Made by a program: the position numbers and the translations under genes. 33,879 bases of DNA, taken from NCBI GenBank assembly GCA_030430675.1, contig JAUIKU010000023.1:1-33879 (forward strand). The letters run 5' to 3'. The notes under the pieces were generated by a model. It ran no database searches. It had not been told where the DNA came from and saw only the letters and a program-made list of their open reading frames with translations. Positions 7,655 through 26,667 of this stretch are shown piece after piece. How positions within the stretch are numbered: position 1 is the stretch's first letter; every line of letters begins with the position of its first letter. Source of the stretch: Bacteroidia bacterium. Its GTDB lineage: Bacteria; Bacteroidota; Bacteroidia; Cytophagales; Cyclobacteriaceae.

Positions 7655-8329
7655 ATGAAGTGGTATTTATACATAATATGTCAGACGAACGCTCTAGTGC
7701 TTTTATCCCAGGCAGAAATTCCGGACACCTTTAATCAGGCCATGATGCTCGCCGCGGGAGATGATCTGGAAAATGTCGCCGGCAGTCCCTATTTATACCA
7801 GGAGTTTAAACCCGGAGATATTTACTATGGAGGAAAGAATAAAATTGAGCAGATACCTTTGCGACTGGATATTTACCGGGACCGGCTGGAATACCGGGAT
7901 AAAAAAGGTACGGTTATGGCTTTTAGTAACCCCGACAGGATGGACCGGATTGTTATCGGAGATGAGGTCTTTGTTTATCTTCCCAAAGGACAGGCTTACA
8001 GGGTCTCGGGATTTTTGAAACAATGGAATGCCAACTTGCCATCCCTATTGACAAAAATGCATATCAGTTTCAAGCGGGGGGAAGAGAAAAAACCTTTTGA
8101 TCTGCACGATCCCAAACCGGACCGACTGGAACGTGTGGCGGATAATCATTTCATATTGAAAAGCAATGATGAAATTGAAAAGGTTACCTCCGTTAAAAAG
8201 TTGATCAGATACCTGGGATCACATACTGAAGAACTAACCGAATATGCCAAAAAAGAAGCCATCTCCGCCAAGGAGCCTAATGAACTGGCAAAACTGGTCA
8301 ACTATTACTTACAATTGGAATCACAGTGA
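7655..8329 (+). CDS. secreted protein of unknown function
   Basis: A 224-residue protein I cannot assign to a named family. Its first 20 residues are hydrophobic with little charge (MKWYLYIICQTNALVLLSQA), giving a plausible signal peptide. The mature part contains GSPYLYQEFKPGDIYY, then alternating short strands with many charged residues (LRLDIYRDRLEYRDK, RIVIGDEVFVYLP), suggesting a small beta-rich fold, and ends in a Lys/Glu-rich helical tail. Similar secreted beta proteins with a GSPYL-like start are common as hypothetical proteins in Bacteroidota. The stop codon overlaps the alternative GTG start of the following sulfatase, so the two are probably translated from one message. Confidence 0.75.
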   Translation: MKWYLYIICQTNALVLLSQAEIPDTFNQAMMLAAGDDLENVAGSPYLYQEFKPGDIYYGGKNKIEQIPLRLDIYRDRLEYRDKKGTVMAFSNPDRMDRIVIGDEVFVYLPKGQAYRVSGFLKQWNANLPSLLTKMHISFKRGEEKKPFDLHDPKPDRLERVADNHFILKSNDEIEKVTSVKKLIRYLGSHTEELTEYAKKEAISAKEPNELAKLVNYYLQLESQ

Positions 8330-12711: not shown

Positions 12712-15700
12712 ATGTTGAAACAAGCCTGGAAACCGTTGAAATTCGTTCTGCTTTTAATACTTTTTTTATCAACTCTTGCGGTTGGGGCACAGGATGAGCG
12801 ACTAAGAGCAGAGCAGTTTACCACGGAAGACGGACTTACCTCCAATATCATCAGTTCGGTGGTCCAGGATAACCTGGGCTATCTGTGGATGCGCACTGAA
12901 TTTGGTGTTGCTCGTTTCGATGGCTATCAGTTTGAGTCATTTGATTACGATCCCAATAATCCTCAGCGGCCCTTTCAGAAGGTATATGTGAATAATGGAC
13001 TTTTCATGGACCAGCGGGGAAATATATGGCTGAATTATGAAGGCATGGGACTGAGCTTTTACGACTATTCCATAGGACAATTCAGGCATTTCAAACCCGA
13101 CCCGCAGCTGTTGGAATATATCGGAAACTACGATGTGAATTGCTTCTACTCATTATCGGAGGACGAATTGTTAATTGGAACCGACAGGGGCTTATTTAAA
13201 TACAATTACCCGGATGGCCAATTTACCAAGTACCCATTTGAAATCGAGTTACCGGTTAGGAGAATATTTCCCGACAATGTGGGAAACATCTGGATCGGTA
13301 CTGGTTTTTTGAGAAACTATCTCAACGGGTTTGGGGCGTTTCTCTATGAAACTAAATCTGGAGTATTGCATAAAATTGGCAAGGGCGGTGAAAGAATAAA
13401 CGATATATACCAGGATACCAGCGGCAGGATCTGGTTAGCAACCAACCAGGGGATAGGCAGGGTACATGAATATAGTCCGGGCATAACCGATCTTTCGAAT
13501 GCCTACTATTCCATTAAAAGGTATGAACTGAATGACGGGCTTGATGCACAAAGAAACAATTTCGACGCCATTTATGAGTTCAATGATCAGGTTTGGGTTT
13601 CGGGTAACCTGGGAATAGCAAGGATTATGCAAACCGACGGTAAAGATTTTGCCTATAAAATGTATTTGGCGTCAGGTGCAATCGACAATAATTCCAGCAT
13701 TTCTTTTCAAAGGATGATGCATGATAACTCCGGAAATCTATGGGCGATAAGTAATAATGCCAACTATGGATTGATCCGTTACTACCCTGAGACGGATCGA
13801 TTCGATACCAACATTGAGAAGGGGCGGGATTTTGAGATGAATGAAGGCAGGCTTCTTTCCGGTTTTATGGGAAAAGACAATATACTGTGGCTGGGCACTG
13901 AGAGATACGGATTACTTAAGATGGACCTCGAGCAGAAAAGGTTTAAAACCCTGAAAGCTGTAGCAGGTGTGGAGCAACCAAAAGTATCGAATAATATTTT
14001 TTCCATAACTCCGGGGAGGGGGGATGAACTATGGTTGGGAACCGCCGGTGGTGTGGTTCACTACCGCAAAGAACAGGAGCGGTTTCAGGTATTTAACCAA
14101 TCCAACACTCCTATGAACGGGAATGTTATTTATTGTTCACTGGTGGATAGCAAAGGGAATTTGTGGCTGGGACACAATCCGGACCAGGTATCCAAGATCA
14201 ACACTAACACCTGGGAAAACTACCCATTCAAATATGTGATAGATGATGACACCACCGGATTTTATGCCTGGGCAATTTCCGCCATAAAGGAAGATCAGCA
14301 AGGTGATGTTTGGATTGCTTCTCACAGTGGAGGCATTTACCTATGTAGCCAGGGCACTCGTGATTGTGTCAATTACAAATTTATCAGAGACGGTCAGGAC
14401 CTTAGGCTGACTACCAATACTATCGATTTTGACAGTCAACAAAGGTTGTGGATCGGAACTACCTTTGGGTTGTATTATTTGGAGCGGGAATCAGACCAGC
14501 TGGTAGAGTTTGAAGCTTATGAGGGCGAAAAAAAATTCCGGGAGGCGATTACGGTGATATCGGAAAGTTCCTCTGGGTTTTGGCTGGGTACGCAATCCGG
14601 TGGACTGGTTAATCTTAATCTTGAGGAAGGCAGTATTGTGCGTTATACCCTGAAAGATGGATTGCCGGGGAATACTATCAATGGCATTCTCAAGGAAACC
14701 GATAATGTGCTTTGGTTAAGTACTAATCACGGGATAAGCAGGTTCGACATTGTCAATCATAGTTTTACCAACTATTCCATCGATGACGGTCTGCCTACCA
14801 ATAATTTTAACATGAACAGTGCCTATAAAGATCAAAATGGCATCATGTATTTTGGCAGCCTGGATGGAGTAGTTTATTTCAACCCGGAAGACATCCGGCC
14901 AAATCCTTTTCCGGCAATACCAATTATAACCGGAATTCAATTGTTTAACCGCGAGATAAGTGTAGGTGACACCATCAACAAGCAAGTAGTTCTGGAGCAG
15001 CCGGTGCCACTACTGGATAAAATTACCCTGAACCATAAAAACAACATCATCTCTTTTTCATTCGCCAGTATGCACTTTGCTTCACCCGCCAATAACCAAT
15101 ATGCCTATAAACTGGAAAACCTGGAGGAAGACTGGAACTATGTTGATGCCCAGCGTCGGGTGGCCTCCTATACTTCGTTGCCCCACGGAGAATACCTGTT
15201 CAGGTTAAAGGCATCCAATAGTGATGGGGCCTGGAGTGATGAGGCTTCGATGGTCATTATAGTAAATCCTCCGTTTTGGAATACCAACTGGTTCAGGGCA
15301 ATCCTGCTGTTGCTATTGATCTTGCTAACCTACGCATTGTTCCGCATTCGCATACGAACCATTAAAGCCAGGAATATTACCCTGAAGAAATTAGTGGCAG
15401 AAAAAACTGCGGGACTGGCCAGGCAAAATAATAAGATTCAAAAGATGGCGGATCGGTTGCACGAAGCAGACCAATCAAAGCTTAAGTTTTTCATGAATGT
15501 TTCACATGAATTCAGAACACCGCTAACCCTAATACTGGGCCCGGTTTCAAATCTGCTAAAATCTCCCCGGTTAACCAGTACCGAGAAGGAGGACGTACGG
15601 TTAATCGAACGGAACGGATATCGGCTTTTACGGCTTACTAATCAGTTGCTGGATTCAACTGACCTGGACAGGGACACCCTGAAGTTACAGGTTGCCAAAA

Positions 15701-17049
15701 GTGATATTGTGGCCTTCATAAGAGAGATCGCCCGGGCTTTTGAATTCAGGGCGGACAACATGGATATTGATTACCGGTTTGAAGCTAACGTACCCACGGC
15801 ATTAGGATGGTTTGACGGAGATAAGATTGAAAAGATATTGTATAATCTGATATCAAATGCCCTGAAGTTTACCAGGGTCAGGGGAAAGATCCGGGTAAAA
15901 CTAGCTATTGAAAACCATCAGTTGCGCTTGGAGGTGGTGGATAACGGTATTGGTATTGACCAGGCCAAGCTAGACCGCGTTTTTGAACGGTTCTACCAGG
16001 TGGAAGAGACCGATAGGAGACGTATGGGTACCGGTATTGGATTAAACCTGGCCAAGAAGCTGGCAGAAAAACATAAGGGCACCTTAAATGCTACCAGTGT
16101 GGTCGATCAGGGTACAACTTTTATACTGACTATTCCCATAGGCCAGGAAGCTTATGGACCGGATGAGAAAGCAGCAGAGCAGGTGAACGTAACCGACAGA
16201 GCATGGCAAATACAAAAGTTATTTGCCTCGGAATCCAGGACGGATACAGAACCGGTAATTCGTCAGGCTGAAATGGGAATAGTCCTTTTGGTAGAAGACA
16301 GTGTGGATATGAGGGCCTACTTAAAAAACGGCCTAAAATCACACTTTTCGGTAATTGAAGCCACCAATGGAAAGGAAGGGCTCAAGCTTGCCGAAGAGAT
16401 GGTGCCTGATATTATTGTAAGTGATGTAATGATGCCCAAGATGGATGGCATGGAGTTCTGCATGCGTATTAAGGAAAATGACTTATTGAACCATATTCCA
16501 TTGATCTTACTGACGGCAAAGGTAGGGGAACAGAATCAAATGGATGGATATCAGATAGGTGCCGACGATTACTTAACCAAGCCCATCGACTTAAACCTGT
16601 TGAGAGTTAGGATTTATAACCTGATCAAGTCCAGACATGAATTACGAAGTTACTTTACTTCCAGTGCGGAGCTGGTTCCGGATAAACTGGTAAATGATCG
16701 CAAGGATGAGATCTTTCTGGAAAAAGTAGTAAAAATTGTTGAAGCAAACCTGTCGGACCCCAGCCTGAACTACCAGCAGTTTGTCGATGAGCTGGGTATC
16801 AGCAAAACCAGGTTGTATGACAAAATAAATAAACTTAGCGGGTTATCCATCAATTTGTTTATTCGCAGCATCCGATTAAAAATTGCCGCCCGTATGATCA
16901 GGGACGGAGCATATAATATTTCAGAAATTGCCTACAAGGTCGGATTTTCTGATCCGGGTTACTTTTCCAAATGTTTTAAGCAACAATTTAAAGTACCACC
17001 AAAGGAATATTCGGACCAGCAGACCTCGCAGCTGACCATAAAGAGCTAA
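12712..17049 (+). CDS. hybrid two-component system regulator (sensor kinase-receiver-AraC)
   Basis: A 1445-residue one-chain two-component system of the kind that controls glycan-use genes in Bacteroidota. In order: signal peptide or first membrane segment (1-26); a periplasmic sensor of two seven-bladed propellers with repeated NLWLGT/GIARF-type motifs (about 27-770); a Y_Y_Y domain (about 785-855); a membrane helix (860-882); a histidine kinase with His932 in NVSHEFRTPLTLI; an ATPase domain with NLISNALKFT, DNGIGI and GTGIGLNLAKKL; a receiver with phospho-acceptor Asp1238 in VSDVMMPKMDG and Lys in LTKPID; and a C-terminal AraC-type DNA-binding domain (about 1330-1440). All catalytic residues are present. 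It probably senses an oligosaccharide released by neighbouring enzymes and activates their genes; this target is inferred from position only. Confidence 0.97.
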   Translation: MLKQAWKPLKFVLLLILFLSTLAVGAQDERLRAEQFTTEDGLTSNIISSVVQDNLGYLWMRTEFGVARFDGYQFESFDYDPNNPQRPFQKVYVNNGLFMDQRGNIWLNYEGMGLSFYDYSIGQFRHFKPDPQLLEYIGNYDVNCFYSLSEDELLIGTDRGLFKYNYPDGQFTKYPFEIELPVRRIFPDNVGNIWIGTGFLRNYLNGFGAFLYETKSGVLHKIGKGGERINDIYQDTSGRIWLATNQGIGRVHEYSPGITDLSNAYYSIKRYELNDGLDAQRNNFDAIYEFNDQVWVSGNLGIARIMQTDGKDFAYKMYLASGAIDNNSSISFQRMMHDNSGNLWAISNNANYGLIRYYPETDRFDTNIEKGRDFEMNEGRLLSGFMGKDNILWLGTERYGLLKMDLEQKRFKTLKAVAGVEQPKVSNNIFSITPGRGDELWLGTAGGVVHYRKEQERFQVFNQSNTPMNGNVIYCSLVDSKGNLWLGHNPDQVSKINTNTWENYPFKYVIDDDTTGFYAWAISAIKEDQQGDVWIASHSGGIYLCSQGTRDCVNYKFIRDGQDLRLTTNTIDFDSQQRLWIGTTFGLYYLERESDQLVEFEAYEGEKKFREAITVISESSSGFWLGTQSGGLVNLNLEEGSIVRYTLKDGLPGNTINGILKETDNVLWLSTNHGISRFDIVNHSFTNYSIDDGLPTNNFNMNSAYKDQNGIMYFGSLDGVVYFNPEDIRPNPFPAIPIITGIQLFNREISVGDTINKQVVLEQPVPLLDKITLNHKNNIISFSFASMHFASPANNQYAYKLENLEEDWNYVDAQRRVASYTSLPHGEYLFRLKASNSDGAWSDEASMVIIVNPPFWNTNWFRAILLLLLILLTYALFRIRIRTIKARNITLKKLVAEKTAGLARQNNKIQKMADRLHEADQSKLKFFMNVSHEFRTPLTLILGPVSNLLKSPRLTSTEKEDVRLIERNGYRLLRLTNQLLDSTDLDRDTLKLQVAKSDIVAFIREIARAFEFRADNMDIDYRFEANVPTALGWFDGDKIEKILYNLISNALKFTRVRGKIRVKLAIENHQLRLEVVDNGIGIDQAKLDRVFERFYQVEETDRRRMGTGIGLNLAKKLAEKHKGTLNATSVVDQGTTFILTIPIGQEAYGPDEKAAEQVNVTDRAWQIQKLFASESRTDTEPVIRQAEMGIVLLVEDSVDMRAYLKNGLKSHFSVIEATNGKEGLKLAEEMVPDIIVSDVMMPKMDGMEFCMRIKENDLLNHIPLILLTAKVGEQNQMDGYQIGADDYLTKPIDLNLLRVRIYNLIKSRHELRSYFTSSAELVPDKLVNDRKDEIFLEKVVKIVEANLSDPSLNYQQFVDELGISKTRLYDKINKLSGLSINLFIRSIRLKIAARMIRDGAYNISEIAYKVGFSDPGYFSKCFKQQFKVPPKEYSDQQTSQLTIKS

Positions 17050-17061
17050 TGGTTTAGTACA

Positions 17062-17082
17062 ATTATTAAGATTCTTAGTAAT
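17062..17082 (+). terminator. possible AT-rich hairpin after the hybrid regulator
   Basis: ATTATTAAG (17062-17070) can pair with CTTAGTAAT (17074-17082) with one wobble pair and a 3-base loop, 13 bases after the regulator stop. It is AT-rich and followed by mixed T-containing sequence, so termination would be weak. Confidence 0.3.
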
Positions 17083-17101
17083 TAATCTTTAATCCTTAAT
17101 T
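17081..17101. repeat. three tandem heptamers (ATTAATC type)
   Basis: The 7-base units ATTAATC, TTTAATC and CTTAATT follow each other directly downstream of the hybrid regulator gene. They share the core TTAAT and are another member of the 7-base-period spacer repeats. Confidence 0.55.
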
Positions 17102-17219
17102 ACAAGGACCCTCACTTCAACAGGTATACTTGTACCTGGTTCCCAAATCCTGGTATTATTTTCCCAATTCACCCTCCATGGAAATTATTACTACTGGTTA
17201 GTAACCGGTTCTCCGGCAA

Positions 17220-17246
17220 TTGCAATCGATTGAATAGCTTCATTTG
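17220..17246 (+). promoter_or_regulatory. possible Bacteroidota-type promoter
   Basis: TTCATTTG at 17239-17246 differs at one position from the -7 consensus TAnnTTTG, and a TTG at 17220-17222 lies 16 bases upstream, near the expected -33 spacing. It would start transcription just ahead of the 39-residue membrane peptide at 17285. One mismatch and slightly short spacing keep confidence low. Confidence 0.2.
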
Positions 17247-17284
17247 GAATAAGTTAAAGCGGCCTACCAAAACCGAGACTCATA

Positions 17285-17404
17285 ATGGAAAACGGCAAAC
17301 AGGTTGATTCTGAGAAAACCGATAGCGGTAATAAGCTTAAGTGGATTCAACTTTTAATTGTAGTGCTGATACTAACCATACTAATAATCCAATTTTTTAC
17401 CTAA
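17285..17404 (+). CDS. 39-residue single-pass membrane peptide
   Basis: A short frame starts with ATG and encodes 39 residues. The first 19 are polar and charged (MENGKQVDSEKTDSGNKLK). They are followed by one strongly hydrophobic helix, WIQLLIVVLILTILIIQFF, and the stop. This is the classic layout of a small single-pass membrane protein with the N-terminus in the cytoplasm (Lys-rich just before the helix). The stop lies 17 bases before the preferred start of the GntR-type regulator, so the two are probably on one message. I do not recognise a family. The sharp split between polar and hydrophobic halves makes chance less likely than for an average short frame, but there is no strong ribosome-binding site. 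Confidence 0.5.
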   Translation: MENGKQVDSEKTDSGNKLKWIQLLIVVLILTILIIQFFT

Positions 17405-17421
17405 ACCAACGAAGCCAGAAT

Positions 17422-18477
17422 ATGAATACATCCTCTACGCTAACTACTACTGCAGACAGGTTTTCGGACTTAAACCTGCTAACAGTTGATGAGTCTTCCA
17501 AAGTCCCAAAGTATTTACAAATAGTTGAGATCATCAAATCCGATATCGACAATGGGATCTTTGGAATTGGCGAGCAGGTACCCTCTATCAATGAGACCAG
17601 CGCGGAGTTCTACTTAGCCCGTGATACCGTAGAAAAGGCTTACAGAGTGCTTAAGGAAAAGGGAATATTGAGTGCGGTGAAAGGAAAAGGGTACTATGTA
17701 GCTTCCACCGGAAAGCTGTGCAACAAACGCTGCCTGTTATTTCTGAACAACTTCAACGATGACAAAATGGCGTTTTATCAGTCGTTTAAAAGCAATATTC
17801 CGGAAAGCTGTGAAGTAGATGTACATCTGTTCAACGGTGATCCCGACCAGTTGGAGCGGGATATTATCGCTAACCTGGGCAGCTACGATAACTTTATCAT
17901 ATTTCCCCACCTGGACGCTATTACCGATGGCCTTCGCCGGGCCATAGCCAAGATACCCAAGCACAAGCTGGTATTCGTGCATCGTGAGTTTGAATCCTGT
18001 ATGGAATGTTCGGCGGTGATTACCAACAACCGCGATGAGTTGTACCAAACCTTGAAACAGATCACCGATAAATGTCAGAAGTACCGGCATTTCCGATTGG
18101 TGTTTCCCGATAATATTTATCATAAGGAGATTTGGGAGGGTTTTGCCGATTATTGCCTGGACCATTCCATAAAATTTGATATTAAACCCGATCTTACCGG
18201 TGTGCAAATATCCACCGGTCAATTATTGATAATCAAGAACGATCAGGACCTGGCCTATGTGGTTAAATACTGCCAGGCGCATGATTTAACATTGGGGCGG
18301 GATGTAGGAGTAATTTGTTACAACGACAATTCACTGAAGGAAGTGCTGGCCGGTGGGATATCAGTGATTACTCCGGATTTTCATCAAATCGGGCAACAGG
18401 TGGCGGACATTGTTATGAGCAATGATTTTGGTAAATCAAAAGGCAATTATAAATTTATCCGCAGAGGCTCAGTTTAG
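17422..18477 (+). CDS. GntR-type transcription regulator with LacI-like sugar-binding domain
   Basis: I chose the ATG at 17422 (351 residues); a GTG at 17341 would add 27 residues but overlaps the small membrane peptide. Residues about 20-95 form a GntR winged helix (YLQIVEIIKSDIDNGIFGIG, then EQVPSINE, the recognition-helix region LARDTVEKAYRVLKEKGIL, and GKGYYV). The rest is a periplasmic-binding-protein-like effector domain (FIIFPHLD, LVFVHREFE, DVGVICYND, ISVITPDFHQIGQQVADIV), as in LacI-type repressors. Such GntR/LacI hybrids in Bacteroidota bind a cytosolic sugar or sugar phosphate and control catabolic genes. It lies 65 bases before the sulfatase-led run of genes, its likely target. 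A small imperfect hairpin at 18503-18524 between them could be an operator. Confidence 0.92.
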   Translation: MNTSSTLTTTADRFSDLNLLTVDESSKVPKYLQIVEIIKSDIDNGIFGIGEQVPSINETSAEFYLARDTVEKAYRVLKEKGILSAVKGKGYYVASTGKLCNKRCLLFLNNFNDDKMAFYQSFKSNIPESCEVDVHLFNGDPDQLERDIIANLGSYDNFIIFPHLDAITDGLRRAIAKIPKHKLVFVHREFESCMECSAVITNNRDELYQTLKQITDKCQKYRHFRLVFPDNIYHKEIWEGFADYCLDHSIKFDIKPDLTGVQISTGQLLIIKNDQDLAYVVKYCQAHDLTLGRDVGVICYNDNSLKEVLAGGISVITPDFHQIGQQVADIVMSNDFGKSKGNYKFIRRGSV

Positions 18478-18542
18478 CTAAGCCAATGACACTAATCGTT
18501 CTCACGGGGTGCAACCCTGTCGTGGATCACTGATTTTAAGAA

Positions 18543-19982
18543 ATGCGGAATCACCTGACCAAGATGGCAGGCATTGGCCTCTGTGGATGCCTGCTTTTTT
18601 CCTGCAACCAGCCAACTGACCAGGACATAACCCTGCCCAATGTTATCTTCATCATGGCGGATGATTTGGGCTATGCCGACGTTGGTGCCTATGGACAGGA
18701 ATTAATCCAAACCCCCAATATCGATCGACTGGCACTCGAGGGGATCAGATTTACCCAGTTCTATGCAGGTACTTCGGTTTGCGCTCCGTCACGCTCGGTA
18801 CTGATGACAGGGCTACACAACGGCCATACACCGGTACGGGGCAATAAGCAATATGGCTACCAAAATGGCCAGCTTCCACTTCCGGATTCCACCAGGACGG
18901 TAGCAGAGTATCTGAAAGCAGCGGGGTATGTCACCGGAATGATCGGCAAATGGGGCCTGGGTAATCCGGGAACCAGCGGCGACCCGTTAAAGCAAGGGTG
19001 GGACTATTATTTTGGCTACACAGACCAGGTTTTGGCGCACAATTACTTCCCGGAATACCTTTGGAGGAATGGCCGAAAGGTGATATTGGAAAATACCGTT
19101 CAGTACCTGGATACCGCCCTATGGCATGATGGCCTTGGCAGTTACTCCACTGAACAAAAACAGTATAGTCACGATCTGTTTGTCGATGATGCCATCAATT
19201 TTCTGCAGAAGCACCAGCAACATCATTTCTTTCTATACCTGCCTTTAACCATCCCCCACGACAATGGAGAGCAGGCAGACTCTTTGAGGTTTGAAGTGCC
19301 ATCACAAGGCATCTATAAAGAAGAATCCTGGAGTCGCAAGGAGAAGGATTATGCCGCTATGATCACCAGGATGGATGAAGGTATTGGCAGAATTGTTGAT
19401 TATATTGACCAATCCGGCCTGGGAGAAAACACCTTGATATTCTTTACCTCAGACAACGGACCTATGAGAAATATGCAAACCACCGAATTTTTCAATTCCA
19501 ATGGCGTGCTGCGAGGGGCAAAGAGGGATTTGTATGAAGGTGGGATCAGAGAACCTTTTATAGTGAGATGGACCGGCCAGATAGCTGCCGGCAGTGTCTC
19601 AGAGCATCTAGGTGGTTTTTGGGATGTGTTGCCAACCCTGTTGGATCTGGCCGGTCAGCCGGTGCCCGATGATACTGATGGCATATCTATCAAGCCTACC
19701 TTGCTGGGGTCCGGAACTCAGCCTGTCCACTCTTTCCTGTACTGGGAGTTTCATGAAGGTACAGGTTCACAGGCAATACGACAGGGTGATTGGAAAGGAG
19801 TAAAGCTGAATGTGAAGCAGGACGCCCAGGCTGCCTGGGAAATATATAATCTGTCCTCTGACCCGGGTGAGGAAAAGAATATTGCCGGAGACCATCCCGA
19901 TAAAGCCGATGCGTTTGAGGAACTAATGAAAAAGAGCCGTACGCCGTCAGCTACATTTCCACTGGCCATTGATACCCTTTAA
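18543..19982 (+). CDS. sulfatase 2 (arylsulfatase A-like, lipoprotein)
   Basis: A 479-residue type I sulfatase. The N-terminus MRNHLTKMAGIGLCGCLLFSC is a lipoprotein signal with the lipobox LLFSC. The core begins NVIFIMADDLGYADVGAYG with the paired metal-binding Asp residues. The formylglycine motif is CAPSR with Cys80, followed by SVLMTG. The segment FFTSDNGPM carries the second Asp/Asn metal pair, and GMIGKWGLG the usual Lys. Length and order match arylsulfatase A-like enzymes acting on sugar sulfates. It opens the co-directional run 18543-26667 and is followed by sulfatase 3 after only three bases, so the two are surely co-translated. Substrate position cannot be read from the sequence. 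Confidence 0.95.
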   Translation: MRNHLTKMAGIGLCGCLLFSCNQPTDQDITLPNVIFIMADDLGYADVGAYGQELIQTPNIDRLALEGIRFTQFYAGTSVCAPSRSVLMTGLHNGHTPVRGNKQYGYQNGQLPLPDSTRTVAEYLKAAGYVTGMIGKWGLGNPGTSGDPLKQGWDYYFGYTDQVLAHNYFPEYLWRNGRKVILENTVQYLDTALWHDGLGSYSTEQKQYSHDLFVDDAINFLQKHQQHHFFLYLPLTIPHDNGEQADSLRFEVPSQGIYKEESWSRKEKDYAAMITRMDEGIGRIVDYIDQSGLGENTLIFFTSDNGPMRNMQTTEFFNSNGVLRGAKRDLYEGGIREPFIVRWTGQIAAGSVSEHLGGFWDVLPTLLDLAGQPVPDDTDGISIKPTLLGSGTQPVHSFLYWEFHEGTGSQAIRQGDWKGVKLNVKQDAQAAWEIYNLSSDPGEEKNIAGDHPDKADAFEELMKKSRTPSATFPLAIDTL

Positions 19983-19985
19983 TAT

Positions 19986-21908
19986 ATGAGACCACTACTA
20001 ATAATTGCAGTTTTCACTTCCCTGGTGGTATGTTTTTCCTGCAACAATCATGCTCCCCCGGATACCCAATTGCGCCCACCCAATATTGTTTGGTTAGTGG
20101 CGGAAGACATAGGGCCGGACCTGTTGGGGTGTTATGGTGATCCCTTGTCTAAAACCCCCAATATTGACCGGATAGCGGCTGAAGGTATAACCTACCACAA
20201 GGCATATGCTACTGCCCCCATTTGTGCCCCGTCACGGTCCTGCCTGATGTCAGGACTCTACGCCACCTCTTTGGGTACTCAGCACCTGCGCTGCGAAATT
20301 CCATTTCCTGACCAACTGAAAACGTTACCGGAACAACTGAGTGCTGCCGGGTATTTTACCAGCAATCGCAATAAGACGGATTATAACTTTGATCCGGAAG
20401 GAAGGTGGGACCACTGGTCCGGAAGTTATGCACCATGGAGACAGAGAGAGTCCCCGGAGCAACCGTTCTTTAGTTTTATCAATGTCGGTCCTTCGCACGA
20501 AGGAAGTGTAAATCACGATCAGCGGTATATGGAATCCATAGCAGATATTCCCCCTGAAAACCTGGTTGATCCGGCCCTGGTGAAAGTGCCCCCATACTAT
20601 CCGGATAATGATAATGGCAGGGAAGTTTGGGCCAGATACTATAATGTATTGCAGGCATTAGACCGAAATGTGGGTAAGGTTTTGGATTCCCTGGAAAATG
20701 ATGGACTGGACGATGAAACTATCGTTTTCTTTTTTGGTGACCACGGGTTTGGTTTGCCCCGCTATAAACGATGGTTGTATCATACCGGGCTTCATGTTCC
20801 CCTGTTGGTGAGTATTCCTGAAAAATATGCGCACCTATTTAACGACCAGCCCGGAAGCAGCAGCGATCAGATGGTCAGTTTTGTGGATTTTCCGGCAACG
20901 GCACTCAATCTGGCGGGGGCCAGGATACCTGAAACCATGGAAGGACAGCCTTTTTTAGGTGAGTCATTGCCGGCGCCGCGTCAGTATGTATTTGGTGCCA
21001 GGGATCGTGCGGATGACATGTACGAAATGTCTCGGGCTGTTCTAAATGACCGTTACATTTATATCAGGCACTATATGCCCCATCTTCCCTATATACAATC
21101 AGGTTATATTTATTCGGATATTAAGTTTGGATTCAGAACATTGAGGGAAGCCAGAGACGGTGGCTTGTTGAGTAACCAACAGCAACAACTATGGGAACCA
21201 AAGCCGGTAGAAGAACTATACGACCTGCAAGCAGATCCCCAGGAACTGAACAATGTGGCAGATAATGCCGATTATACCGGAATTAAAGACCAGCTGCGGC
21301 AACGGTTGGACACTTGGATGATCGATCATAAGGACCTGGGCTTGTTACCAGAAGCCGGGTACATGCTGCGGTCATCTGGTTCGACGCCTTATGATTTTGC
21401 CCGCAACAGTGAAAATTTTGAAGCAGAAAAAGTATTGAAGGCGGCCAAACTGGTAGGCACAGGTGATCAAGCACAGTGCCTGGAACTGCTGGCAGACCCG
21501 GATCCGGGGGTGAGGTACTGGGCTACCATGGCTTTGATGCAATTCAATCAATTGGAACAACCTTCGGTCCGGGCACTTCAGGAAAGTCTTCATGATCCTT
21601 CTCCCAGTGTGCAAATCAATGCCGCAGAAGCACTTTGCCGGTCAGGGACCTACCCTGAGGCGGTTACAACCCTGGGGAAGTGGGTGAAAGATGAACACCC
21701 ATGGCTTGCCATGCAGGCGGCCCGAAGTATTCAACTGGTAGGAGAAGATGCCAGGCCTTTGGTCCCGGTGATGTATGAAGTACTGGAACAGAATCTGGGT
21801 GAGCCGGGACAAAGATTGAAATATAAGGATTTTAACTATGCCGCATTTACCAGCTGGGCGTTGGAATGGGCGTTACAGGAGCTGGGGGAGGAGGTTGAGG
21901 TTAATTAG
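19986..21908 (+). CDS. sulfatase 3 fused to C-terminal HEAT repeats (lipoprotein)
   Basis: A 640-residue protein. The first 26 residues form a lipoprotein signal with Cys near residue 19 in VVCFSCNN. The sulfatase domain covers about residues 35-480. NIVWLVAEDIGPDLLGCYG holds the first metal ligands, Cys80 in CAPSR is the formylglycine site, and FFFGDHGFG the second metal pair. Residues about 484-625 are alpha-helical pairs with the HEAT-like pattern LLADPDPGVRYWATMAL and LHDPSPSVQINAAEAL, making it some 150 residues longer than ordinary sulfatases. HEAT tails on sulfatases are known mainly from Bacteroidota and Planctomycetes, where their role is unclear; binding of a partner or substrate is my guess. 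It differs enough from sulfatase 2 to suggest a different sulfate position. Confidence 0.94.
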   Translation: MRPLLIIAVFTSLVVCFSCNNHAPPDTQLRPPNIVWLVAEDIGPDLLGCYGDPLSKTPNIDRIAAEGITYHKAYATAPICAPSRSCLMSGLYATSLGTQHLRCEIPFPDQLKTLPEQLSAAGYFTSNRNKTDYNFDPEGRWDHWSGSYAPWRQRESPEQPFFSFINVGPSHEGSVNHDQRYMESIADIPPENLVDPALVKVPPYYPDNDNGREVWARYYNVLQALDRNVGKVLDSLENDGLDDETIVFFFGDHGFGLPRYKRWLYHTGLHVPLLVSIPEKYAHLFNDQPGSSSDQMVSFVDFPATALNLAGARIPETMEGQPFLGESLPAPRQYVFGARDRADDMYEMSRAVLNDRYIYIRHYMPHLPYIQSGYIYSDIKFGFRTLREARDGGLLSNQQQQLWEPKPVEELYDLQADPQELNNVADNADYTGIKDQLRQRLDTWMIDHKDLGLLPEAGYMLRSSGSTPYDFARNSENFEAEKVLKAAKLVGTGDQAQCLELLADPDPGVRYWATMALMQFNQLEQPSVRALQESLHDPSPSVQINAAEALCRSGTYPEAVTTLGKWVKDEHPWLAMQAARSIQLVGEDARPLVPVMYEVLEQNLGEPGQRLKYKDFNYAAFTSWALEWALQELGEEVEVN

Positions 21909-21909
21909 C

Positions 21910-22007
21910 AGGGCGTAGGGTGTAAGGAGCTGGAATAGGGACGAAGGACGAGGTCATGCCTTCAAGCTTTAAGACAACGCTTATGGCTCAGAGCTCAAAG
22001 TTCAAAA
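21910..22007. repeat. degenerate heptamer tracts between sulfatase 3 and the GH78-like gene
   Basis: Right after the sulfatase 3 stop, six 7-base units run from 21910 to 21951: AGGGCGT, AGGGTGT, AAGGAGC, TGGAATA, GGGACGA and AGGACGA. Further units with the same period but another word follow: CTTCAAG and CTTTAAG (21960-21973), and CTCAGAG, CTCAAAG and TTCAAAA (21987-22007). The whole spacer before the next start codon is thus mostly 7-base-period sequence. This also argues that the ATG at 21956, which lies inside it, is not the true start of the next gene. Confidence 0.65.
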
Positions 22008-22015
22008 CAAAGACC

Positions 22016-24352
22016 ATGAAAAGTAGTATCACATTAGCTGTCATTTTTGTACTGTTTATTGCTCAGTCGTTGGCGCAGGACCAGCTTCCGGAACCATGGA
22101 TATCCTATCCATCTGCCAATAACCAAACCTACGGTGTTTATCATTTTCGCAAGACATTGGAGTTGGCTGAAGTACCGGAAAAGCTGGTGGTTCATATTTC
22201 CGCGGACAACCGGTATCATCTGCTGGTAAATGGCCAAAGGGTGTGCTACGGTCCCGCCAAGGGAGACCTCATAACCTATAAATACGATGTGATCGACTTA
22301 GCTCCGTACCTCAAAAAAGGGAAAAATATATTAGCAGCCCTGGTATACAATGCCGGCAAGGACATGCCCATGTCCTTGTTTTCGGTACAAACCGCCTTCC
22401 TGCTGAGGTCCGAAGACCCGGACTGGGAACACCTTAATTCAAGCCAGACCTGGAAGGTGTATAAGAATCCGGCCTATCAGCCGGTTTCGTATTACGAAAT
22501 GTTGTTTAAGGAGCGCTGGTTCTATGGTTATTACGCCTGTGGTCCCGGCGACAATATGCAGGCTAAAGCGCATCCCTGGGGCTGGGAATTGTCGGAGTTC
22601 GATGATTCACACTGGAAACGGCCCGAACCCCTTCAATTTGAAGGGAAACCACCCTGGAACCTGGTGCCACGAAATATTCCTTTTATGGACAACTTTCGTG
22701 AAAGTCCCCAATCAATACGGTTGGTTGAGGGAATTGATATGCCTTCAGGACCAAAAGAAACAATAACCATCCCTGCCAACTCCAGCACCAGCATCCTTTA
22801 TGATTACGCCATGTTGACCATGGGTTACCCCGAATTGAAGGTACAGGGTGGCGCAGGAAGTTCCATTCAGGTAAAATATGCCGAGGCCTTATATGAGGAA
22901 GTCAATCTAAAGGCCCACCGGGATTCGGTGAACAACCTTACCATGTATGGCGTTTGGGATGTCTTTCATCCCGACGGACCACAGAGAACTTTCCGGCCCT
23001 TATGGAAACGGGCATTCAGATATCAGCAACTGGTGATTGAGACGGCTGACCAGCCACTTGAGATCCTGTCACTGGAATCGGAATACTCCGGATATCCCTA
23101 TCGTGACATGGCTTCTTTTAAAAGCAGCGACGCCAAACTGAATAGGATATTTGAGATGTCTCAGCGTACCCTGAAAATGTGCTCTGGCGAAACTTATTAC
23201 GATACACCCTTTTACGAGCAATTGAGCTATGGTGGCGACAATCGACCCATAGGAAATATTTCCTTTTATCACAGTACCGATGACCGGTTGTTTAAAGAAG
23301 CCATGAGGCTGTATCCCCAATCGGAAAACCGGGAAACCGGATTATTCAAATCCGCCTATCCTTCCAGATTCGATTTTGACATGGGGTCGTGGTCGTTGGC
23401 CTGGATACAGGGGTTATATGATTACTACATGGTCCGGGGTGACGGTGAGTTCGTTTCGGCTTTCATTCCGAATATCGAAAAGGTACTGGGGTTTTATGAA
23501 AGGCATATGGACGAATCTCTGGGTATTCTGGGTACGGTAAAAAATCAGAATTTTATGGATTGGAGTATTACCAAGGGCAGTATTCCCAGAAGTAATGAGA
23601 ACCGGGAAATGACCCATTCTACCATGCTTACCCTGTTTTATTTGCACACATTGGATTTAACGGTTAAGCTGTACCGCGAATTGGGAGAGGAAGCAAAGGC
23701 CAGCTACTGGGAAATAAAGGCGGAAGGCATAAATCAAGCGGTAAAAAAGCACTGTTATGATGAATCGGTAGGTCTATTTGTGGATGTCCCCGGACAGCAG
23801 GTTTATTCGCAGCACAGCAATATCCTGGCAATTTTATGTAATGTTGTACCAGAGCAAGAGCAAGAAGAGCTGCTTAACAGAATTTTGAGCTTCGATCAGT
23901 TCGACGAATATGCCAGTTCGTATTTTTCGTTCTTTTTGTACAAGGCCATGGAAAAAACTGGTCAGCAAGCCCTTTACCTGGACCATCTTGACCATTGGTA
24001 TAAGTTTATAGATATGGGTTTAACTACTACCGGAGAAACGGGGTTTGCGTCCCATGATCGATCGGATTGTCACGCCTGGAGCGCTCATCCCGCTTACTAT
24101 TTGTTAAGTATGGTCTGTGGCATTAAACCCGGAGATATAGGGTTTGACCAGGTTATTTTTGAACCCAGTTTGGGGGGGCTATCATCAATACAGGCATCCA
24201 TGCCGCATAAAAATGGTCGGATTTCCGTAGATTACCGGCAAAAGGGAAAAAAATTGAGAGCGACCATAACACTGCCACCGGGTACTTCCGGCACCTGGCA
24301 ATTCCAGGGGAATACGGTATCGCTAACAGAAGGAGAGAATAGGATAAGATAG
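22016..24352 (+). CDS. GH78-like (alpha-L-rhamnosidase-type) glycoside hydrolase
   Basis: From the ATG at 22016 the protein has 778 residues and a clear signal peptide (MKSSITLAVIFVLFIAQSLAQ); the in-frame ATG at 21956 lies in repeat sequence. The N-terminal part (about 30-300) holds beta-sandwich domains, with HISADNRYHLLVNGQRVCYG and KGKNILAALVYNAG typical of the rhamnosidase N-terminal domain. The C-terminal half is an (alpha/alpha)6 barrel. Glu401 in DTPFYEQLSYGGDNR occupies the place of the usual acid motif of GH78, and Glu674 in TTTGETGF with SDCHAWSAHP is near the usual base region. The family hydrolyses terminal rhamnose or related sugars. The changed motif makes the exact sugar uncertain. 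It is 26 bases before the esterase gene. Confidence 0.88.
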   Translation: MKSSITLAVIFVLFIAQSLAQDQLPEPWISYPSANNQTYGVYHFRKTLELAEVPEKLVVHISADNRYHLLVNGQRVCYGPAKGDLITYKYDVIDLAPYLKKGKNILAALVYNAGKDMPMSLFSVQTAFLLRSEDPDWEHLNSSQTWKVYKNPAYQPVSYYEMLFKERWFYGYYACGPGDNMQAKAHPWGWELSEFDDSHWKRPEPLQFEGKPPWNLVPRNIPFMDNFRESPQSIRLVEGIDMPSGPKETITIPANSSTSILYDYAMLTMGYPELKVQGGAGSSIQVKYAEALYEEVNLKAHRDSVNNLTMYGVWDVFHPDGPQRTFRPLWKRAFRYQQLVIETADQPLEILSLESEYSGYPYRDMASFKSSDAKLNRIFEMSQRTLKMCSGETYYDTPFYEQLSYGGDNRPIGNISFYHSTDDRLFKEAMRLYPQSENRETGLFKSAYPSRFDFDMGSWSLAWIQGLYDYYMVRGDGEFVSAFIPNIEKVLGFYERHMDESLGILGTVKNQNFMDWSITKGSIPRSNENREMTHSTMLTLFYLHTLDLTVKLYRELGEEAKASYWEIKAEGINQAVKKHCYDESVGLFVDVPGQQVYSQHSNILAILCNVVPEQEQEELLNRILSFDQFDEYASSYFSFFLYKAMEKTGQQALYLDHLDHWYKFIDMGLTTTGETGFASHDRSDCHAWSAHPAYYLLSMVCGIKPGDIGFDQVIFEPSLGGLSSIQASMPHKNGRISVDYRQKGKKLRATITLPPGTSGTWQFQGNTVSLTEGENRIR

Positions 24353-24378: not shown

Positions 24379-25689
24379 ATGACTAAAACTTTTATAAGTG
24401 TGCTGCTATTCTACCTGGTAATTGGCTGGGAGGTAGCGGCCCAGCCGCAGAAGAAGATGGTGGAGGTACAGGTGGCTCCTACCAGGGAGGGGTGGATCTA
24501 TGAGACCGGGGACCGGGTGGAGTTTGAGGTGCGCATTTTGAAGAATGGACAGCCATTATCCAACACTGAGATCCGGTATCAGACAGGGCTGGAAAAGATG
24601 CCTCCGGAGAAAGAAGGAACAATGAACCTAAAGAATGGAATTGGCACTATAAAGGGAGGTACACTGGATGAGCCGGGATTTCTTAGGTGTGAGGTATGGG
24701 TGGAATACCAGGGAGTAACCTACCACGACTGGGGTACTGCTGGCTTTGATCCGGAAGAAATCGACCCTACCGTGGAAATGCCGGCCGATTTTGACGAATT
24801 CTGGAGGTCAGCCAAGGAAGAACTGGCCACATGGCCTATTGATGCGAAATTGACCTTACAACCAGATCTTTCTACCGGCGAAATCAATGTATATCATGTG
24901 GATCTTCAAAATGTTAGGACTTCCTGGAGAGGCAACAGCAGATTCTATGGTATGTTATCAGTACCCAAAGCCCCGGGTAAGTATCCGGCAATCTTAAACG
25001 TTCCCGGCGCGGGAGTCAGGAGCTACGGCCGGGATGACCGGGCAGCCAGGGGAGTAATAGTATTCAAGATCGGCATTCACGGGGTTCCGGTAAACCTGCC
25101 TGATGAGGTATACCGGTCACTGGGGGCAGGCGCCTTGTCGGGTTATCAGAACTTTAACCTGAATGACCGTGATCTTTACTACTACAAGCGGGTTTACATG
25201 GGTTGCGTTCGGGCTATTGATTTTATTTTTTCATTGCCTGAATTCGACGGAGAAACGCTGGCGGTAACTGGCGGCAGTCAGGGAGGGGCATTGTCAATCA
25301 TTACTGCAGGCCTGGATGACAGGGTGAAGTATCTGGCTGCTTATTACCCGGCACTGAGTGATGTAACCGGCTACCTGGCTGGCAGGGCAGGGGGGTGGCC
25401 TCACATGTTTATGGAATACGACCGGAAAAAATACCCGGATTGGGTAGAAACCGTTGGATACTATGATGTGGTCAACTTTGCCAAAAAGCTAACCGCTACC
25501 GGTTGGTATTCCTGGGGGTTCAATGATCATGTATGCCCTCCAACCTCCATGTATGCAGCCTATAACGCTATAACTGCACCTAAGGAATTACATAAGTTTT
25601 TGGAAACCGAGCACTGGACCTTCCCCGAGCAACGGGTACAGGGAGACGATTGGTTGTTTGAGAAGCTGGGTGTAAAGAGCAGCAAGTGA
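24379..25689 (+). CDS. secreted acetyl-xylan-esterase-like (CE7-type) hydrolase
   Basis: A 436-residue protein with signal peptide MTKTFISVLLFYLVIGWEVAAQ. Residues about 25-130 form an extra beta-sandwich N-terminal domain (EFEVRILKNGQPL, GFLRCEVWVEYQG). The C-terminal alpha/beta hydrolase domain matches acetyl xylan esterases of the AXE1/CE7 type, which remove acetyl groups from sugars. The catalytic triad is visible: Ser300 in TGGSQGGAL, Asp383 in GFNDHVCPP and His412 in TEHWTF. Deacetylation would open a substituted glycan to the neighbouring hydrolases. The gap to the upstream gene is 26 bases and to the downstream one 45, on the same strand. Confidence 0.92.
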   Translation: MTKTFISVLLFYLVIGWEVAAQPQKKMVEVQVAPTREGWIYETGDRVEFEVRILKNGQPLSNTEIRYQTGLEKMPPEKEGTMNLKNGIGTIKGGTLDEPGFLRCEVWVEYQGVTYHDWGTAGFDPEEIDPTVEMPADFDEFWRSAKEELATWPIDAKLTLQPDLSTGEINVYHVDLQNVRTSWRGNSRFYGMLSVPKAPGKYPAILNVPGAGVRSYGRDDRAARGVIVFKIGIHGVPVNLPDEVYRSLGAGALSGYQNFNLNDRDLYYYKRVYMGCVRAIDFIFSLPEFDGETLAVTGGSQGGALSIITAGLDDRVKYLAAYYPALSDVTGYLAGRAGGWPHMFMEYDRKKYPDWVETVGYYDVVNFAKKLTATGWYSWGFNDHVCPPTSMYAAYNAITAPKELHKFLETEHWTFPEQRVQGDDWLFEKLGVKSSK

Positions 25690-25734: not shown

Positions 25735-26667
25735 ATGAAAACCAGAAGAGAAGCCCTCGCAGCAATTGGAATAACCGGTGCCAGTGCTGTATTGCCGAGC
25801 AACGCATATGGCAGTACTACAAGAAAAAAAGATTCGAGCTTTCGTTATTGCCTGAATACCAGTACCATCAGTGGAAAGAGGTTGGGAATCCAGCGATATG
25901 TGGAAATTGCCGGTGAGGCAGGCTACAATGGAATTGAGGTTTGGATCAGGGATTTGAAAGCATACGTTGAGGCGGGCAATTCATTGTCCACCCTGGCAAA
26001 GCTTATTGAGGACCAGGGGTTAAAGGTAGAGGATGCCATCGGGTTTGCTCCCTGGCTGACCGAGGGAGACGAGGGAAAAAAAGTTGGCTTTAAACAGATG
26101 CGGGAAGAGATGCTTATACTTAAAGAAATAGGAGGCACCCGGATTGCAGCACCTCCTGCGGGACTACCCGGTGACAAGCCCCTGGATTTGTTCAAGGCCG
26201 GTGAGCGATACAGGGAATTGCTGGATTTGGGCAGGGAAACGGGAGTGATGCCTCAATTGGAATTTTGGGGTTCTTCTCCTGTGTTGAACCAAATGGGACA
26301 GGTATTATTGATAGCCGCCGTGGCCAATGATCCGGATGCCCGAATTTTACCGGATGTCTACCACCTGTTCCGTGGTGGCTCAGGCTTTGAGAGTCTGAAA
26401 ATGCTCAGTGGCAATTTCATAGAGATTTTCCATATGAACGATTACCCGGGTTCCAAGCCCCGTGAGGAACAAAACGATGGGGACCGGTTATATCCCGGGG
26501 ACGGAGTGGCCCCATTAAAGCAAATTCTTACCGACCTGAAGTCAGGAGGAGGTACCACAGTGCTCTCACTGGAGTTATTCAACCGCGACTACTGGGAAGA
26601 GAACCCCCTGGTGGTGGCACAAACAGGTTTGCAGAAGATGAAGCAGGCAGTGGCACTGGTGAATTAG
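25735..26667 (+). CDS. Tat-exported sugar isomerase/epimerase-like TIM-barrel protein
   Basis: A 310-residue protein of the xylose-isomerase-like TIM-barrel superfamily. The N-terminus MKTRREALAAIGITGASAVL is a twin-arginine signal (TRREAL), so the folded protein is exported. The metal site of isomerases/epimerases is intact: Glu176 in PQLEFWG, Asp207 in LPDVYHLF, His233 in IFHMNDYPG and Glu280 in LSLELF. These enzymes move carbonyl groups or invert carbons of keto sugars, and export to the periplasm is unusual compared with the textbook cytosolic forms. It ends the run that starts with sulfatase 2 and is followed by a hairpin terminator. Dehydratases of the same fold are an alternative function. 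Confidence 0.9.
   Translation: MKTRREALAAIGITGASAVLPSNAYGSTTRKKDSSFRYCLNTSTISGKRLGIQRYVEIAGEAGYNGIEVWIRDLKAYVEAGNSLSTLAKLIEDQGLKVEDAIGFAPWLTEGDEGKKVGFKQMREEMLILKEIGGTRIAAPPAGLPGDKPLDLFKAGERYRELLDLGRETGVMPQLEFWGSSPVLNQMGQVLLIAAVANDPDARILPDVYHLFRGGSGFESLKMLSGNFIEIFHMNDYPGSKPREEQNDGDRLYPGDGVAPLKQILTDLKSGGGTTVLSLELFNRDYWEENPLVVAQTGLQKMKQAVALVN

Follow-up and report, generated by a model that had tools for sequence, protein, structure and literature searches.

A probable membrane microprotein gene between an HTCS and a GntR-type regulator in Cyclobacteriaceae, with a possible role as regulator partner

Introduction

To our knowledge, most of the small membrane proteins described in regulatory circuits belong to enteric bacteria. 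KdpF and AcrZ are examples of small subunits or stabilisers of a membrane enzyme or transporter, and the AraR architecture of regulators joins a GntR DNA-binding domain to a LacI-like ligand domain. The closest described regulatory case is MgrB, which acts on the sensor kinase PhoQ via its helix and its N-terminal lysines, a periplasmic two-cysteine part also being needed (PMC8404706). In Bacteroides, the motifs of hybrid two-component systems (HTCS) are direct repeats with, on average, 21 bp between sites (PMC3878776).

We analyzed a stretch of 33,879 nucleotides of Cyclobacteriaceae DNA, called the window here, in which a short frame at 17285-17404 separates an HTCS gene from a GntR-type regulator gene. 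We interpret its product as a regulator-linked microprotein, narrowly distributed among the genomes sampled, which may work together with either GntR or the HTCS. Small membrane proteins linked to regulators are already known; as far as our searches show, the lineage of this peptide and its setting are new. The open-licence literature gave nothing related for small membrane proteins or small ORFs combined with GntR, and only transcriptome work for HTCS combined with small proteins or polysaccharide-utilization loci (PUL). Among the matches listed there for membrane sequestration of GntR, and for small membrane proteins with repressors, none was to the point, judging by title and the start of the abstract.

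Results

A head-plus-helix frame with the substitution pattern of a gene

Two features define the core of the locus:
17285 to 17404, plus strand: membrane microprotein, 39 residues (basis: translation, orthologue in genome G002, substitution pattern, counterpart in genome G011)
17422 to 18477, plus strand: GntR-type regulator with LacI-like ligand domain, 351 residues (PF00392, PF13377)

Translation of the first feature gives MENGKQVDSEKTDSGNKLKWIQLLIVVLILTILIIQFFT (39 residues) followed by a stop codon that ends at 17404, leaving 17 bases before the GntR ATG at 17422. The coordinates and the translation confirm the description in an earlier note on this DNA, made from the letters and frames alone, of a 39-residue peptide with a polar head and one helix, 17 bases before a GntR/LacI-type regulator. 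The polar and charged head spans residues 1-19 and the one hydrophobic stretch approximately residues 20-38 at the C-terminal side (best 17-residue Kyte-Doolittle mean, 2.98); the peptide ends with this helix, with no periplasmic part and no cysteine. Because there is nothing to speak of after the helix, any action of the peptide must go through the helix or a cytosolic head. Basic residues adjoin the helix in the peptides of the window, of G002, and of G011 (a genome from another genus), the heads containing 4, 3, and 6 lysines plus arginines and 4, 3, and 2 acidic residues, respectively. An N-in topology is clearly suggested in G011 and faintly in the window and G002, where the head charges are balanced (4/4 and 3/3). 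We searched 20,000 dinucleotide shuffles of the 372-bp gap between HTCS and GntR for a comparable frame (ATG-started, 35-60 residues, hydrophobic segment with a mean of at least 2.9, ending at most 60 bp from the regulator) and found none.

The peptide falls short of the cut-off in Pfam (best E 0.017), has no match in NCBIfam at 0.001, and reaches a best E of 0.051 in PHROGs, so that the initial impression of no known family holds within these three collections. The operon position argues against a type I toxin peptide.

Evidence for a gene comes from G002, which belongs to the same genus as the window genome and carries a syntenic orthologue at C447:9880-10002 (40 residues, 55% identity, E 9.3e-7), placed, as in the window, between the orthologous HTCS and GntR genes; none of 5000 head- and helix-wise shuffles scores as high in this comparison. 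Over 38 codons the two frames differ at 36 of 114 nucleotides (9, 8, and 19 changes at the three codon positions), with pS 0.55 and pN 0.25 for the whole frame and pS 0.51 and pN 0.13 for its helix part, the synonymous excess in the frame having a Fisher p of about 0.006 on rounded counts. When the G002 changes were placed at random 5000 times, 73% of the placements broke the frame and 0.9% left it both intact and at least as similar. The two other forward frames, over the first 108 nucleotides, contain stops and have pS against pN of 0.30 v 0.34 and 0.31 v 0.34, although a synonymous excess does appear in frame +1 when the helix part is taken alone (pS 0.37 v pN 0.21). Identity between the window and G002 amounts to 83/123 in the peptide frame and to 115/243 alignment columns in the spacer upstream of it. 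The proposal of a real small membrane protein has thus come through the comparison that the earlier note itself had named: the frame is kept in G002 and synonymous changes exceed nonsynonymous ones. We regard 17285-17404 as a real gene with high confidence.

The other way to read this stretch is that there is no separate gene and that GntR starts upstream, at GTG 17341, overlapping the peptide frame. The GntR frame is indeed open for 27-37 codons upstream of its ATG in the window, G002, and G011, but across the helix it accumulates relatively fewer synonymous than nonsynonymous changes (pS 0.14 v pN 0.27, on small counts of 1.5 and 11.5 changes), whereas the peptide frame in the same overlap has pS 0.55 and pN 0.12; moreover, the upstream extension has a different reading in G011. 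The upstream start is therefore unsupported by the substitution pattern, and we rejected it as highly improbable.

A candidate HTCS operator upstream of the peptide

Three features precede the peptide:
12712 to 17049, plus strand: hybrid two-component sensor/regulator (HTCS), 1445 residues (Reg_prop, Y_Y_Y, HisKA, HATPase_c, Response_reg, HTH_18)
17140 to 17167, plus strand: direct repeat TTCCCAA-N14-TTCCCAA at a period of 21 bp, a candidate operator for the HTCS; 117 nt separate it from the peptide ATG
17180 to 17183, plus strand: GGAA in inverted orientation after the repeat, found by alignment in all three loci (four bases, may be chance)

The window HTCS holds sensor, kinase, receiver, and AraC-type domains all in one protein. 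The exact repeat occurs once in the window and in none of 100 shuffles, and across five genomes of the genus it has two matches, in the window and in G002, each upstream of the peptide. When up to three mismatches are allowed, the number of matches in the window (7) is close to the 6.87 expected, and none of them is conspicuous as a second site. In the corresponding stretch of G011, a list of the 7-base direct repeats with periods of 20-22 revealed an exact 10-bp direct repeat, CTATATTCCC, again with a 21-bp period and extending as TTCCCTAA and TTCCCAAA. The distance from the second half-site to the peptide ATG is 117 nt in the window, 114 in G002, and 113 in G011, and a looser pattern derived from the G011 repeat, scanned against 22 loci, matched two, the G002 and the G011 locus. 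In G034, where HTCS, GntR, and a rhamnosidase-like gene stand in the same order, we found neither such a frame in the 400 bp before GntR nor such a repeat. The AraC domain of the window HTCS is identical to that of G011 at 57 of 95 positions and to that of G034 at 37 of 95, with the other domains hardly closer at 41 v 40% (kinase), 46 v 43% (receiver), and 28 v 26% (propeller) in the same two comparisons; the DNA-binding domains of the window and G011 HTCSs thus resemble each other more than their remaining domains do. On the simplest reading, the HTCS would use the repeat at 17140-17167 as its operator and the target operon would begin with the peptide gene, and we consider it likely that the operon is under HTCS control.

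Each of the three loci has an HTCS gene. In G011 it comes two genes further along, while the peptide keeps its adjacency to GntR. An MgrB-like feedback could be imagined on this basis, in which the peptide, induced by the HTCS, packs on the sensor's transmembrane helix and lowers or raises its kinase activity, GntR being a mere operon mate. The candidate HTCS site upstream of the peptide fits such a role, as does the precedent of MgrB, a small N-in membrane protein that modulates the very system inducing it (PMC8404706). MgrB, however, needs its periplasmic two-cysteine part, for which our peptide has no equivalent, and in G011 the peptide and HTCS genes are not neighbors. We also scanned 19 further genes of HTCS size in G000, G002, and G011, picked from 46 Y_Y_Y matches irrespective of their AraC domain, and a same-strand hydrophobic frame was found nearby in just one case, which speaks against feedback of this kind and shows that the peptide is not a standard HTCS companion, an idea that we dropped. 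Overall, we judge the MgrB-like account unlikely, though it is the strongest of the rivals. The single frame in that scan (L152:7274-7432, minus strand; G011:C2:380273-380431) is of 52 residues with a head-plus-helix design, and its end lies 50 bp upstream of another HTCS-sized gene; the five remaining genomes of G011's genus contain no convincing relative of it.

The genes downstream

Five genes follow GntR, co-directional and with gaps of at most 65 bases, and all are probable operon mates identified by Pfam:
18543 to 19982, plus strand: sulfatase
19986 to 21908, plus strand: sulfatase with HEAT repeats
21956 to 24352, plus strand: alpha-L-rhamnosidase-like protein
24379 to 25689, plus strand: acetyl xylan esterase-like protein
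25735 to 26667, plus strand: xylose isomerase-like TIM barrel protein

We found no terminator-like site on the plus strand in 17000-18700, and promoter-like sites are at chance level (3 v 3.9 expected). Peptide and GntR are probably co-transcribed. The size of the peptide and its single helix would also suit a KdpF- or AcrZ-like role, as subunit or stabiliser of one of the cluster's membrane enzymes or transporters, but Pfam recognized no inner-membrane transporter among these five genes, and we think such a role quite improbable. Elsewhere in the window, a 224-residue frame at 7655-8329 overlaps the start of a sulfatase at 8326 and has no Pfam match above the cut-off.

The peptide accompanies one clade of GntR regulators

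Both domains of the window GntR exceed the curated cut-offs (PF00392, 43.5 bits; PF13377, 34.8 bits), and its residues 27-94 have a PDB match to an arabinose repressor. The G002 regulator is 83% identical to it, and the nearest ones beyond G002 are 41-44% identical. We searched for further GntR relatives in 295 and later 390 genomes of the family, 390 of the order, and 395 of the class (overlapping samples), and read the upstream stretches of 31 genes, 30 of them from loci of the 295-genome family search and one from the class search. These stretches extend up to 400 bp (326 and 269 bp at two loci near contig ends), and many weaker matches of the family search, given without a locus, lie outside the 31. 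A head-plus-helix frame near the start is present in 3 of the 31, namely in the window, G002, and G011, and none of the other 28 has a frame of the peptide's design. Weaker hydrophobic frames occur upstream of six of these 28: the most hydrophobic (L035; mean 2.69, 27 residues) is headless and ends 117 bp away, and the nearest look-alike (L054; 35 residues, mean 1.99) ends 16 bp before a start that was assigned without an ATG.

In the GntR tree, the three peptide-bearing regulators form one clade with a support of 100/100, G011 being on a long branch. No members beyond those known were found at 1e-72 in the 390 genomes of the order, at 1e-66 in the 395 of the class, or at 1e-78 in the 390 of the family, and the other five genomes of G011's genus have no clade GntR at 1e-60. 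With three loci in all, the linkage of peptide and clade counts as one evolutionary event. The clade is uniform, with less than 15% of the other GntRs agreeing, at 36 positions; the changes include S66A in the helix-turn-helix (HTH) region and S112N and T318P in the ligand domain, at positions nearly constant elsewhere, and they may reflect altered DNA and effector specificity. A GntR structure model built from two sequences (mean pLDDT 42.6) was too poor for mapping the clade residues.

Outside the clade, the GntR of G308 has a rhamnulose-phosphate aldolase fusion (above the NCBIfam cut-off) in its vicinity, and isomerase- or kinase-like genes matching rhamnose models below the cut-offs occur close to the GntRs of G036, G128, and G308; given these neighbors, the relatives are plausibly rhamnose regulators. 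The peptide-bearing clade sits with polysaccharide genes, including a GH9 match in G011 and a lambda-carrageenase-like protein in G002. The latter (L058:2528-5323; PF25290-PF25292) stands just before the HTCS, and its counterpart position in the window is occupied by an 850-residue protein with a secretion sorting domain.

The G011 counterpart and the distribution of the peptide

The G011 counterpart is a 44-residue ORF of head-plus-helix design, 26 bp before that genome's closest GntR, and 20,000 shuffles yielded no such ORF. Its sequence similarity to the other two is weak (in the two comparisons, 106 and 300 of 5000 shuffles made separately for head and helix reach the observed score), and a search with the peptide in 59 genomes (that of the window plus 58 relatives, G011 included) missed it, the G011 matches lying elsewhere in the genome. 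The case for G011 is therefore one of position, size, design, and a DNA site in common, which together suggest homology to the window and G002 peptides.

Between-genus similarity that is weak while the design is kept, and a spacing of 17-26 bp to GntR, would also be expected of a translated leader, in which translation itself matters, by coupling or by bringing the message to the membrane, and the product has no partner. A leader accounts poorly for the constraint on individual residues of the helix (pN 0.13 v pS 0.51), and an Rfam scan of 17000-18500 at the gathering threshold gave no match. We consider a mere leader improbable.

At E ≤ 10, the peptide search gave matches in 21 of the 59 genomes: the window genome itself, G002 (9.3e-7), and 19 others with E of 0.0167 or worse, which we did not accept as relatives. 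A profile of the three peptides has matches in 192 of 295 family genomes at E ≤ 1, of which five loci were read; the best beyond its own three members (1.9e-4) lies inside a 543-residue frame, and the high score of G011 is circular, its peptide being part of the profile. A wide distribution is thus rejected, and the generality across Bacteroidota that had been envisaged at the outset shrinks to three loci of one family among the genomes sampled. One profile match (L088:1501-1632 in G072, E about 0.025, with similar matches in G211 and G276) is a small head-plus-helix frame after a 500-residue frame, ending 11 bp before a 176-residue protein; it is probably an unrelated microprotein.

Discussion

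The earlier idea of a peptide that might tether the regulator or the nearby sensor, report to it, or modulate it can now be narrowed: the peptide goes with a single GntR clade, downstream of a likely HTCS site, and GntR is the presumed partner. We propose that the HTCS detects a periplasmic sugar signal and switches on a polysaccharide-utilization operon whose first gene encodes a bitopic membrane microprotein, co-made with the GntR encoded next. The peptide would insert N-in by its one helix, its charged head of about 19 residues facing the cytoplasm, and would bind GntR, holding or altering some of the regulator at the inner membrane; the pair would form a second, local check on the HTCS-switched operon. 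As a full reading, from the HTCS-switched operon with the peptide first to an N-in peptide binding co-made GntR at the membrane, this is tentative. Its least certain part, the action on GntR, rests on strict adjacency and is, taken by itself, somewhat short of an even chance. We place GntR first and HTCS feedback second since the adjacency to GntR is kept across genera and the HTCS is two genes off in G011; with an HTCS in all three loci, however, locus linkage cannot separate the two as partner.

A two-layer circuit, in which the HTCS induces the operon and the operon's microprotein recruits or gates the cytosolic GntR from the next gene, is a bolder version that we hold to be rather unlikely, and for which we found no description in the open-licence literature. 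If true, a sugar-responsive regulator would have acquired a membrane co-regulator, either in addition to its small-molecule input or instead of it. If the peptide is real, its sulfatase- and rhamnosidase-bearing cluster would offer a testable Bacteroidota case of a microprotein in HTCS/GntR glycan control, with a named operator, peptide, and candidate partners.

Of the systems described, MgrB of Escherichia coli, a 47-residue inhibitor of the sensor kinase PhoQ, resembles the peptide in being a short single-helix membrane protein, and the peptide, too, is probably made under the control of a neighboring sensor system. Unlike MgrB, the peptide is without a periplasmic part or cysteines and adjoins a GntR gene, the phosphorelay partner here would be a hybrid sensor, and no sequence relation is seen. 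The Bacteroides HTCS regulons resemble the locus in having the HTCS beside its target cluster and a direct-repeat operator with about 21 bp between sites, whereas here the first target gene would encode a membrane microprotein, followed by a second regulator, an arrangement not mentioned in the parts of that study cited here (PMC3878776). AraR-type GntR regulators share with the window GntR both the GntR DNA-binding domain and the LacI-like ligand domain, and the window clade differs from them in its altered HTH-region and ligand-domain residues and in the membrane peptide encoded upstream.
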